Under the pieces are notes generated by a model. It had not been told where the DNA came from. It searched no databases and was given only the letters and a program-made list of their open reading frames with translations. A program made the position numbers and the translations under genes. Shown here in pieces: positions 22,424-32,552 of a stretch of DNA of 33,962 nucleotides. Location: positions 1 to 33,962 of the IMG/VR virus record IMGVR_UViG_3300008110_000304. One strand, written 5' to 3'. Source of the DNA: a virus. The stretch's first letter is position 1, and every line of letters begins with the position of its first letter.

Positions 22424-24010
22424 TCACACCTCGTCTAGTTCCTGTTTATACAAGTCCACAATCTTCTGGTGGCTATCCACCTTTCCTTGCAACATCGAAT
22501 ACATCTTTCTCTCAACGTCAGAACCTTGCAGATGCACCACAGTCATCTTGTTCTGTTGTCCCACTCGGTCGATTCGCCCAATACATTGCAGGTAGGTCTC
22601 GACTGACATCACCGGAGACCAGAACACAATCGTGTCTGCGGCAGTCAGCGTGATACCGTGCGATGCAGATTGAGGCTGAATCACTAGCACTCGCGGATCA
22701 GGAGCCGTCTGGAATTTATTGACGATCTCCGATCTACCTTGTGCGCTAACAGAGCCTTGAATAACTGCGGTTGATATCCCTTGCTTTCTCAAGTACGCCA
22801 CGACTACATCAATAGTGTGGATGTACGGAACGAATATTACTACTTTGTTGGACGTTTCGTCTAGTACTTCTTGTAAAGCATTTAGGCGAGGGGAGACATC
22901 GAACTCCACAACGTCATGCTTGTCGGTGTAGACCGCACCGCCTGAAATCTGTAGCAACTTGTTGAGACTGGCTGCGGCATTGACCGCGCTGATTTGTTCA
23001 CCCGCTGCTTCGATAAGAAGTTGTTGCCTCAACGCCTTGTAGTACTGAGCTACTTGTGTCGTGAGTGGAACATCGCGTGTCTGATAAGTAAGTTCTGGAA
23101 GATCCAGACAGTCTTTCTTGCAATGCCGCACGGCGGGTTGCAGCGCATTGAAGACCTCGACCTGTGCCGTAGGCTTCGGCAACCACTTAAACCGAGTGAC
23201 CGGATACATCACCCTGTCACGCCACGCCGTCGTGAACTTCGGAACCCGGTACGGCGAAACAAGTTTAGCAATGCCAAACGCATCGACCGGAGACTGCGAG
23301 GCCGGTGTGCCGGTCATCATCCACAGCCACGTGTGGGGTTGAATCAGTTTGGCCAGAGTCTTCCAACGCCGAGTCGATGTGGCCTTGTATGCGTTCGCTT
23401 CGTCTACGATGATCAGGTCGTAGTTAGCCTCAAGCAGTTCTTTGAAGACGATATGTGTGCCGTCAAAGTTGATGATCGTGAAGTCGGCGTTGTCATCGAT
23501 TAGATTCTTGCGCTTGGTAGCCGAGCCGTGAGCGATGGCGCAGCGACGGTGCATCGCTGTCTTGAAGATGTCTGCTTGCCACGCCGAGTACATGATCGAC
23601 AACGGGCAGATCACAAGTACCTTCTTGATAATGCCTTGGTTCATCAGGTAGTCAGCCGCCCAGATCGCCGCTGATGTCTTACCTGTACCTGCCTCGTTGA
23701 AACAGAACGCACGTGGTCGGAGCGACAGGAACGATGCCGTATCCCGCTGATGTTCAAACGGTGTGTGGAATCCCGGCCATGCGTAATCTCGCATAATGGG
23801 CGAGGGGATCTTTGGCAGCGACGGGTTGGGTTGTTCTAGATCAAAGATCGTTGCCAACTTCATCGCTTCTTGGTGTCCCCAGTACACCAACAATTCTTTG
23901 TAATCCTCGTCCGACTTCAGGATCTCGCACTTCTCAATGCGTGAGTAGGCTTCATCCGCTATCTGCGGATTCACCTGAAACTGAAGTGCTGTGTTCTCAA
24001 TTACTTGCAT
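22424..24010 (-). CDS. SNF2-type superfamily 2 DNA helicase/ATPase
   Basis: 528 residues. All main SF2 motifs are present: a Q-like region FHTPFEHQRD (81-90), Walker A NEAGTGKT (105-112), Walker B VDEAN (202-206), motif III MTGTPASQ (232-239), motif V SASHGITLTAAD (448-459) and motif VI QCIGRIDRVGQ (475-485). IGRIDRVGQ is characteristic of SNF2/RapA-like enzymes; the DEAN box replaces the common DEAH. The protein would translocate on duplex DNA, helping replication or recombination; phage homologues are often next to family A polymerases. The ATG at 24010 follows a hairpin-rich leader with a terminator 33 nt upstream and has only a weak AGG ribosome binding site. Confidence 0.9.
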   Translation of the reverse strand: MQVIENTALQFQVNPQIADEAYSRIEKCEILKSDEDYKELLVYWGHQEAMKLATIFDLEQPNPSLPKIPSPIMRDYAWPGFHTPFEHQRDTASFLSLRPRAFCFNEAGTGKTSAAIWAADYLMNQGIIKKVLVICPLSIMYSAWQADIFKTAMHRRCAIAHGSATKRKNLIDDNADFTIINFDGTHIVFKELLEANYDLIIVDEANAYKATSTRRWKTLAKLIQPHTWLWMMTGTPASQSPVDAFGIAKLVSPYRVPKFTTAWRDRVMYPVTRFKWLPKPTAQVEVFNALQPAVRHCKKDCLDLPELTYQTRDVPLTTQVAQYYKALRQQLLIEAAGEQISAVNAAASLNKLLQISGGAVYTDKHDVVEFDVSPRLNALQEVLDETSNKVVIFVPYIHTIDVVVAYLRKQGISTAVIQGSVSAQGRSEIVNKFQTAPDPRVLVIQPQSASHGITLTAADTIVFWSPVMSVETYLQCIGRIDRVGQQNKMTVVHLQGSDVERKMYSMLQGKVDSHQKIVDLYKQELDEV

Positions 24011-24043
24011 TATATAAACCTAACTATACACCTACGCTGAATT

Positions 24044-24063
24044 AAAAAGCCCGTAACGTGGGC
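24044..24063 (-). terminator. Rho-independent terminator before the SNF2 helicase gene
   Basis: On the - strand GCCC, a 7-nt loop and GGGC form a short GC stem, extendable by one G-U pair, followed directly by TTTTT. It ends the hairpin-rich segment and lies 33 nt upstream of the helicase ATG. The short stem suggests partial rather than complete termination. Confidence 0.65.
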
Positions 24064-24199
24064 CAGTCGTCTGAAGCATGGGAGAAAGTGTAAGACCATC
24101 TTCAGATGACGCAGTTAATTTGTTGGGTGGACTAAACCCTGTGGGTGAGGTGTGAATGACCCACGCCGCTATGGTCACTTGCGCCTTAGCCAAGCGGCA
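24044..24199 (-). ncRNA. Candidate structured small RNA, or attenuated helicase leader
   Basis: About 156 nt lying between a near-consensus promoter and a rho-independent terminator. In transcription order: hairpin A (GCCGCT+TGG with CCA+AGCGGC, 9 bp with one bulged U, 24198-24165) begins at the predicted transcript start. Hairpin B (GTGGGT/ACCCAC, 6 bp, 24164-24141) abuts it. Hairpin C (GGGT/ACCC, 7-nt loop) is at 24139-24125. After an AT-rich linker comes hairpin D (24110-24066), a stem of about 14 bp with one A-C mismatch and one bulged base, then the terminator. No open frame longer than a few codons fits it. It is not a recognisable tRNA, riboswitch or 6S RNA. Transcription is inferred. 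Confidence 0.55.
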
Positions 24200-24204
24200 T
24201 AGAA

Positions 24205-24233
24205 TTTATAAGGACTCCTTACCCATTAGTCAA
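24205..24233 (-). promoter_or_regulatory. Near-consensus sigma70-type promoter
   Basis: On the - strand TTGACT (24233-24228) and TATAAA (24210-24205) are separated by exactly 17 nt; each hexamer matches the sigma70 consensus at five of six positions. The predicted start (about 24200-24198) falls at the first base of hairpin A. The -35 box begins 4 nt after the stop codon of the upstream HNH-like gene. The spacer contains TAAGGAGTCCTTA, a near-perfect inverted repeat that could be an operator. Confidence 0.72.
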
Positions 24234-24237
24234 CCCT

Positions 24238-24492
24238 TTACTTCATGGAGCCGTCAGACTTTCTTCGGAAGGAGCGGTTCTTGCCGGGTGACTCAAGACG
24301 AGTTCCCTGCTTGTTGCTGCCGCCCTTCGATAGTGCTTTGACATGGGCAACGTCCTTACCGTTTCGGCTAATACCTTTCTTATCGTAGGAACGACGCGCT
24401 CGCTGACGCTCCATGCGGTTCTCGTGTTCGCCTCTTTCGACCTGCTGCTTGTACTCTTTTTTGTACGGGCGGCTCTTGTTCACGTACGGCAT
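24238..24492 (-). CDS. Small HNH-endonuclease-like protein
   Basis: 84 residues, very basic. The ATG has GGAGG 7 nt upstream and starts directly after the stop of the Cas4-like gene. The C-terminal half (GKDVAHVKALSKGGSN, then RLESPGKNRSFRR) matches a family of small phage proteins annotated as HNH endonucleases, in which DVxH, GGxN and NRSF are conserved. No zinc-binding cysteines are visible, and only one histidine lies in the expected catalytic segment, so activity is doubtful. It could nick DNA for replication or packaging, or only bind it. Confidence 0.55.
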   Translation of the reverse strand: MPYVNKSRPYKKEYKQQVERGEHENRMERQRARRSYDKKGISRNGKDVAHVKALSKGGSNKQGTRLESPGKNRSFRRKSDGSMK

Positions 24493-31986: not shown

Positions 31987-32103
31987 TCACCAGTATTCCC
32001 TCCCACCTCTTGATGCACCCCAACTCGGTGGCGGCACGTGTGCCCACTCTCGACGGCGATACTCTTCGCGTCTCTTAAAGAAATCTAACAGCCAACGGAT
32101 CAT
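31987..32103 (-). CDS. 38-residue basic micro-protein
   Basis: A short frame fills the gap between the alpha-CTD gene and the coiled-coil gene. Its ATG overlaps the preceding stop (ATGA), and AGGAGG lies 7 nt upstream. The predicted peptide begins MIRWLLDFFKRREEYRRREW and ends with a Pro/Gly/Ser/Arg tail and EYW. The amphipathic start followed by many arginines suggests membrane or nucleic-acid contact. The strong ribosome binding site and ATGA coupling are the main support; function unknown. Confidence 0.55.
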   Translation of the reverse strand: MIRWLLDFFKRREEYRRREWAHVPPPSWGASRGGREYW

Positions 32104-32552
32104 GCTTCGCCCTCCTTGAGCAAACGATGTAGTTGCTCAATAAGTTTTGCATACTCAAGTGACTTCACCGGATCATCGACGTTGCAGTTAATCACAAGAC
32201 GATGCGCGGCAATCCGCATAGCTTTGATCAGTTTCTCTCTCGTGACCGGCACGATATGCTCATCAGGACTAGCAACATTGAGATCGCTTGGAGGCCAATT
32301 CTCCAACTTCATATTAAATTTCAAACCGACCTGCACCAAAGATTTTTCCAACTCTTCGATTGACTTCCTACCCAAGTTGGGTATGCAGAGAAGTTCCCAT
32401 CTTTGTTTTTGAACGAGTTCGCCAATCGTGTTTATCCCACCGGCTTTCAAACAATGACTCAAACGAACTGTTAGCCAAAGTTCATCAACAGGTGCGGTAA
32501 ATATGTTTGGATACCTTGACAGGATATCTTTCTTTAAGTCGTACTCGCTCAT
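32100..32552 (-). CDS. Stand-alone RNA polymerase alpha C-terminal domain (alpha-CTD) protein
   Basis: 150 residues. Residues 21-88 align without gaps to E. coli RpoA 256-323. Residues equivalent to DNA-binding R265, C269, K271, G296, K298, S299 and E302 are present (R30, C34, K36, G61, K63, S64, E67); N268 is His (H33). The end, MKLENWPP (81-88), matches RpoA. The sigma-contact E261 is Trp (W26), and the 287 patch T-E-V-E reads Q-R-W-E. There is no RNA polymerase N-terminal domain; a helical tail of about 60 residues follows instead. It may bind UP elements or host factors and redirect host transcription. ATGA overlap with the methyltransferase; AGGAG 5 nt upstream of the ATG. Confidence 0.88.
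   Translation of the reverse strand: MSEYDLKKDILSRYPNIFTAPVDELWLTVRLSHCLKAGGINTIGELVQKQRWELLCIPNLGRKSIEELEKSLVQVGLKFNMKLENWPPSDLNVASPDEHIVPVTREKLIKAMRIAAHRLVINCNVDDPVKSLEYAKLIEQLHRLLKEGEA

Follow-up and report, generated by a model that had tools for sequence, protein, structure and literature searches.

A structured RNA family with a predicted pseudoknot core, apparently new, in environmental phages and a few bacterial chromosomes

The gap between a small HNH-like gene and an SNF2-family helicase gene of an environmental phage carries a structured RNA, and that this RNA belongs to a real family is, on comparative evidence, near certain. Its core is a predicted H-type pseudoknot, which the initial annotation of the locus overlooked. 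Well over a hundred environmental phage contigs carry a member of the family, as do a few bacterial chromosomes, and the family is apparently new, since it has no match in the RNA family library. The window, i.e. the whole stretch of DNA analysed, is the 33,962 nt virus record IMGVR_UViG_3300008110_000304; the gap lies at 24011-24237, between two ORFs both on the minus strand. The features of the locus, listed along the minus strand, are as follows.

24238-24492, minus strand: small HNH-like gene, upstream context and neighbour of the RNA at most loci; without Pfam match
24228-24233, minus strand: -35 element TTGACT, from the sequence and from same-distance counterparts in relatives
24205-24210, minus strand: -10 element TATAAA, from the sequence; predicted start at about 24198-24200
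24044-24199, minus strand: structured RNA comprising hairpins A to E plus the U run, placed by covariance model R1 with hairpin E next to the match
24165-24198, minus strand: hairpin A, stem 1 of the predicted H-type pseudoknot, from the fold and from both-side changes in 7 of 7 family pairs
24180-24185, minus strand: 5' strand of the pseudoknot, GGCGCA, in loop A; pairs with UGCGUC
24141-24164, minus strand: hairpin B, from the fold, within the long pseudoknot loop; the family hairpin is 82% paired
24125-24139, minus strand: hairpin C, from the fold; relatives vary here
24108-24113, minus strand: 3' strand of the pseudoknot, UGCGUC, just 5' of stem D; pseudoknot pairing of 99.7% over 101 sequences
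24070-24106, minus strand: stem D, UCUGAAG / CUUCAGA, with its apical region; 96.7% paired, both-side changes in 7 of 7 pairs
24080-24087, minus strand: UUUCUCCC, largely unpaired anti-Shine-Dalgarno-like stretch in stem D, from 5-mer enrichment in the family
24048-24064, minus strand: hairpin E (GGCCC-ACGUUAC-GGGCU), a family hairpin
24044-24048, minus strand: U run past hairpin E, from the sequence, a possible intrinsic terminator or attenuator
22424-24010, minus strand: SNF2-family helicase gene (Pfam PF00176, PF00271), downstream context outside the RNA

The promoter first proposed here, TTGACT-N17-TATAAA, is present on the minus strand with ten of twelve consensus matches by eye, and the start expected from it (about 24198-24200) falls, as had been claimed, on the first bases of hairpin A. 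The promoter scanner, which requires a final T in the -10 element, omits it. Counterparts of the -35 element are found at equal distance in L036, L039, L041, L045, L046, L052 and L126, and the -10 element of diverged relatives likewise ends about 6-7 nt before stem A. A sigma70-like promoter with at least 9 of 12 matches lies no more than 90 nt upstream of the RNA in 25 of 100 copies; in about a dozen copies the promoter ends 10-18 nt before the pseudoknot strand, which would place the start on or near the first bases of stem A. In most other copies stem A starts at or just past the stop codon of the preceding ORF, so that the RNA must be co-transcribed with it. A plain sigma70-like promoter and a short leader are also seen at the HNH-helicase junction of L031, L035, L048 and L049, which have no RNA.

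Hairpins A, B, C, D and E of the window fold as initially described. The fold of this single sequence is weak (z -2.36 against shuffles, 4 of 200) and the opposite strand folds better (z -3.76), so that the initial evidence alone would not prove an RNA. Some of the elements stand only in part. The stem D of about 14 bp is real, but the GUC at 24110-24108 which the minimum-energy fold adds to it belongs to the family pseudoknot. Hairpin C folds in the window but is no general feature of the family. The presumed terminator GCCC-loop-GGGC-TTTTT has both its hairpin and its U run, but the hairpin is the conserved hairpin E of the family, and a U-rich tail follows it in only 12 of 100 copies. An attenuator in which hairpins B and E would pair (CGUGGGUC and GGCCCACG, noted by eye in the window) was rejected, no such pairing being found in the relatives inspected.

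Within the family only a few short anchors are identical in sequence: loop A contains (U)AAGG-N3-G-AGUG, and (W)AAC precedes a strand of six bases which is complementary to the six in front of AGUG. The order of elements is stem A, a loop of 2-4 nt, one strand of the second stem, AGU(G), stem A once more, a long loop containing hairpin B, AAC, the partner strand of the second stem, stem D and, directly after it, hairpin E. The window fits this order in the covarying pseudoknot (AGGYRYG-AGUG in loop A and AAC-CRYRYC, here GGCGCA/UGCGUC), with the near-invariant AGUG (24179-24176) directly after the GGCGCA strand and the near-invariant AAC (24116-24114) directly before UGCGUC, as well as in stem D, one base past the pseudoknot and followed by hairpin E. 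Other members pair GGCAUG/CAUGCC, GGUGUG/CGCAUC, GACGUG/CGCGUC, AACAUG/CAUGUU or GAUAUG/CAUAUC at the same place. Of 100 members, 61 close hairpin E with the loop CGUAA, which sits on 25 different stems; 12 have GAAAGA, on 6 stems, and 9 have ACGNNAC, the type of the window.

The RNA is established by its relatives, through strong covariation, independent model matches and promoters starting at stem A. In the alignment of homologous gaps and in covariance-model searches, both proposed as checks, the stems proved conserved and covarying. Compensatory changes in stems A and D, named beforehand as the supporting evidence, were found in 7 of 7 pairs each among 101 model-aligned members, and the pseudoknot covaries too (5 of 6 pairs; 12 of 13 together with stem D). 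Pairing in these members amounts to 99.7% in the pseudoknot and 96.7% in stem D; a MAFFT alignment of 25 representatives gives 98.7% and 98.3%. As a control in the latter alignment the partners were slid by 1-3 columns: pairing, 83% without the shift, then came to 36-46%, and the covariation score did not exceed 0.19 as compared with 0.575. In a tree of 62 loci built on the helicase, the six pseudoknot pairs changed 3, 10, 5, 6, 12 and 6 times, with mostly similar numbers of changes on the left and right sides. Alignment rows were partly selected by a pseudoknot or stem match, and the 101-member alignment was guided by stems A, B and D and took no account of the pseudoknot. Model R1 likewise holds stems A, B and D without pseudoknot pairs. 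It confirmed the loci found by pseudoknot pattern, nearly all with E values of 1e-7 to 1e-23, and in bacterial copies found through R1 alone the pseudoknot pairs are intact, among them GGCGUG/CACGCC of L318, which is compensated (one mismatch in L319); both results reduce the selection bias. R1 matches the window at 24070-24200 (46.9 bits, E 2.5e-11), its seed having included the RNA of L002, which is identical to that of the window; matches were also obtained in sequences outside the set from which the model was built.

A protein search with the helicase gave 80 IMG/VR loci, about 60 of which carry a diverged RNA just upstream of the helicase gene. One sequence pattern was found in 109 viral stretches and another in at least 120. 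The presence of the RNA varies among close phages: it is missing from some close relatives whose records span 30-62 kb, and a rescan with a second model, R2, still found none, while R2 did confirm the copy of L249 (E 4e-7). A pattern search of 84,980 bacterial and archaeal genomes returned only five contigs, of which two (L190, L191) are convincing; the matches in L192-L194 look like chance, as do the bacterial matches L310, L316 and L317. Whole-genome scans gave matches in 5 of 187 genomes of the family of Methylophilales strain HTCC2181, one of them doubtful, in 3 of 399 of its wider order and, in a broad draw of the phylum, only in HTCC2181. It is thus mainly a phage RNA whose hosts are probably betaproteobacterial, the host of the window phage being undetermined. 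An apparent case of two copies in one phage (G018, L212/L290) was discarded as apparently redundant contig ends.

The usual gene order is polymerase, PD-(D/E)XK, HNH-like, RNA and helicase, and most copies lie between an HNH-like or PD-(D/E)XK gene and the SNF2 helicase gene (HNH is missing in L176, L165 and L082). In most phages the RNA starts 0-10 nt past an ORF and ends about 40-50 nt ahead of the helicase gene, without promoter or terminator of its own. Elsewhere it is found downstream of the helicase gene and before the next gene (L243, L251, L294), before a polymerase gene (L098, L239) or 1.5-3 kb before it where the HNH-helicase junction lacks the RNA (L249, L232), ahead of Sf6-like terminase genes (L136, L083, L189, L226, L204, L248) and before an unknown ORF (L244). 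The large terminase gene of L226 (1-2076, minus strand) carries an intein/Hint insertion. Bacterial copies precede a helicase IV gene, with a terminator (L308), or a YqaJ recombinase gene (L313, L315), lie with a terminator beside a Sel1-repeat gene (L314), are followed by a terminator and then a convergent gene (L190/L309) or have terminators (L318, L319). The same two uncharacterised genes seem, by eye, to lie upstream in both L309 and L319, and an Xre/MbcA/ParS-like ORF lies downstream of the RNA in L319. The window also encodes, at 32100-32552 on the minus strand, a 150-aa protein of the phage in which Pfam recognises the alpha-CTD domain of RNA polymerase (PF03118, 2.6e-17) and which may redirect host transcription; an alpha-CTD-like ORF is also seen by eye near the RNA in L248.

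No Rfam 15 family (4227 models) matched the window or 13 relatives at the gathering score. Permissive scans found nothing over the RNA in L190/L191 and ten short loci and, in the window, only a chance snoRNA match on the plus strand beside the RNA; ARAGORN found no tRNA or tmRNA in the window. The initial statement that neither a tRNA, 6S RNA nor a known riboswitch is recognisable is borne out by these searches, and its proposal of an unrecognised phage structured RNA is strongly supported by the lack of an Rfam match together with the covariation of stems A and D and the pseudoknot. Among annotated phages, nucleotide searches with the gap of the window and of two relatives gave only short chance matches, and the helicase search nothing above about 41% identity. 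The open-access literature yielded no description of the RNA; as subscription papers were mostly beyond reach, a prior description is not fully excluded. Moreover not every published motif is in Rfam, e.g. Burkholderiales-1 (PMC2864571). Like the manA and wcaG motifs of phage and marine sequences (PMC2864571), this is an orphan structured RNA of environmental phages and a few bacteria, but those are cis-regulatory candidates for metabolic genes and the present RNA matches no Rfam model. The word new refers to the RNA class, unmatched by the library families tested, and the way in which it acts may prove familiar. The RNA does not keep the constant position before one class of genes expected of a riboswitch, contexts varying around the usual one upstream of the helicase gene, nor does it show the tandem pseudoknot repeats and toxin gene of a type III toxin-antitoxin RNA, no locus having more than a single copy.

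Of the functional readings still open, the best, which we favour tentatively and with somewhat less than even confidence, is a regulatory RNA acting in trans through a stretch that pairs with Shine-Dalgarno sequences; neither a transcript, nor its processing, nor a target has been observed, and the mechanism is inferred only. In an unbiased count of 5-mers over the apical part of stem D, GACAG, an internal-loop motif, and UCUCC, CUCCU, UCCUU and UUCUC came out as the most enriched, the last four in 28, 28, 28 and 23 of 74 against 6-8 expected (TCTCC, 28 of 74 against 6.1). These four combine to UUCUCCUU, which is 73% unpaired in predicted folds; the motif is present in 61 of 74 members and absent from the rest. 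The D loops bind the canonical Shine-Dalgarno sequence AAGGAGGU at -8.59 kcal/mol against -7.18 for dinucleotide-shuffled loops (0 of 100 shuffles), but their binding to the reversed motif, UGGAGGAA, is nearly as strong, so that the seed reading is unspecific. An unpaired complementary seed, as in small RNAs which pair with Shine-Dalgarno sites, is thus at hand with weak specificity. The own downstream Shine-Dalgarno site is bound no better than swapped sites (-8.06 against -8.35), which favours pairing in trans.

According to the trans-acting reading, an RNA of about 150 nt would be transcribed either from a promoter that belongs to it, the case in the window, or within the operon mRNA, from which it is possibly released. 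The pseudoknot and hairpin E would provide stability or a platform for protein binding, while the exposed UUCUCCUU would base-pair in trans with the Shine-Dalgarno sequence of host or phage messages and lower their translation. In favour are the lack of a tie to one downstream gene, the promoter found in part of the family and the terminators of bacterial copies; free-standing copies, found in betaproteobacterial chromosomes, and mobility indicate that the RNA can work alone, and for this reason the regulatory small RNA is, among the options initially offered, the one which fits best. Against it, the RNA lies mostly inside an operon without own promoter or terminator, which is unusual for a trans-acting RNA. 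RNAs of the S. aureus RNAIII type (PMC2837412) similarly expose in a hairpin an unpaired pyrimidine stretch complementary to the Shine-Dalgarno sequence, and share with this family stand-alone copies with terminators, but the conserved pseudoknot core and the phage operon setting are particular to the new RNA and there is no sequence relation.

A leader or intergenic element that acts in cis in the helicase or replication operon, and whose pseudoknot would be bound by a protein (e.g. a phage single-strand-binding protein or the helicase) or a small molecule in order to tune the downstream genes, remains a serious possibility, albeit one we doubt. Nearly all phage copies stand directly upstream of the SNF2 helicase gene on the same strand and with fixed spacing, many relatives have a promoter at this junction, and some displaced copies precede polymerase, exonuclease or HelD genes. 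As the RNA usually heads a helicase unit which ends at a conserved terminator about 3.2 kb further on, this explanation stays alive. It does not account for copies downstream of the helicase gene, before terminase genes or, in bacteria, before a convergent gene, and relatives without the RNA retain helicase and operon; for the same reason the attenuator leader of the helicase gene suggested initially fits the usual location but fails for copies elsewhere. Moreover the Shine-Dalgarno site lies outside the structure, and stem D does not co-evolve with the site of the downstream gene. A U run which could build a terminator into the fold is present in the window, though in only 12 of 100 copies of the family. 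Much the same tuning is exerted by the gene 32 leader of T4, a pseudoknot with which the message of a phage replication gene begins. The new RNA resembles it in kind and position, but is much larger, stands ahead of a helicase gene where T4 has the gene of a single-strand-binding protein, and is found elsewhere and in bacteria.

We consider improbable a decoy or anti-defence RNA, in which the pseudoknot and the GNRA-like loop of hairpin E would titrate or inhibit a host RNA-binding protein or defence factor. The near-invariant unpaired AGUG and AAC and the CGUAA and GAAAGA loops on varying stems do resemble a recognition surface, and presence varies among close phages, but no candidate partner is at hand and the bacterial neighbours show no clear defence system, with matches only to a WYL regulator and a UvrD-like helicase.

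A strong intrinsic terminator, AGCGGGGTGG(CCG)TCGCCCCGCT-TTTTTT, lies in the window between two replication-module genes at 20823-20801 on the minus strand. EAR-type elements are intergenic within operons. A structured RNA in an operon with such an internal terminator could be a processive antiterminator similar to HK022 put, found in early phage transcripts, or to Bacillus EAR, found in an operon, making RNA polymerase read through. This is very unlikely: the terminator is kept in place in many relatives with and without the RNA (L024, L025 and L029 among the latter), so that the target is unlinked to the presence of the RNA, bacterial copies end in their own terminators, and putRNA has about 70 nt and two stem-loops (PMC9378689) whereas the present RNA has about 150 nt and a pseudoknot.

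No evidence was found that the element is part of a replication origin, another early suggestion (skew was not computed). In the pistol ribozyme (RF02679) a hairpin loop and a strand just 5' of a second hairpin form a six-pair pseudoknot. Scarcely more than a formal possibility is a self-cleaving ribozyme or RNase-processing element cutting the polycistronic mRNA between HNH and helicase genes, since the frequent position between two ORFs without a promoter and the pistol-like topology, a hairpin-loop pseudoknot beside an internal-loop stem, are outweighed by the absence of any Rfam ribozyme match, pistol included, even in permissive scans, by other conserved bases and the additional hairpins B and E, by copies starting at their own promoter, which need no cut, and by the lack of an invariant cleavage-site-like position outside the pseudoknot.

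In its widest form the trans-acting reading would make this a widespread phage RNA class presenting an anti-Shine-Dalgarno stretch on a pseudoknotted scaffold, which occupies ribosome-binding sites and shifts translation in infected cells, and which is also found in a few betaproteobacteria. This is speculative and rather unlikely; if true, it would be a takeover device made of RNA only, captured also by a few betaproteobacteria. The covariance model, the predictions for 5' end, pseudoknot and seed, and the pairs of close phages with and without the RNA make its role directly testable. That a family which covaries strongly in aquatic phages has no place in Rfam points to an RNA function in infection which has been overlooked.
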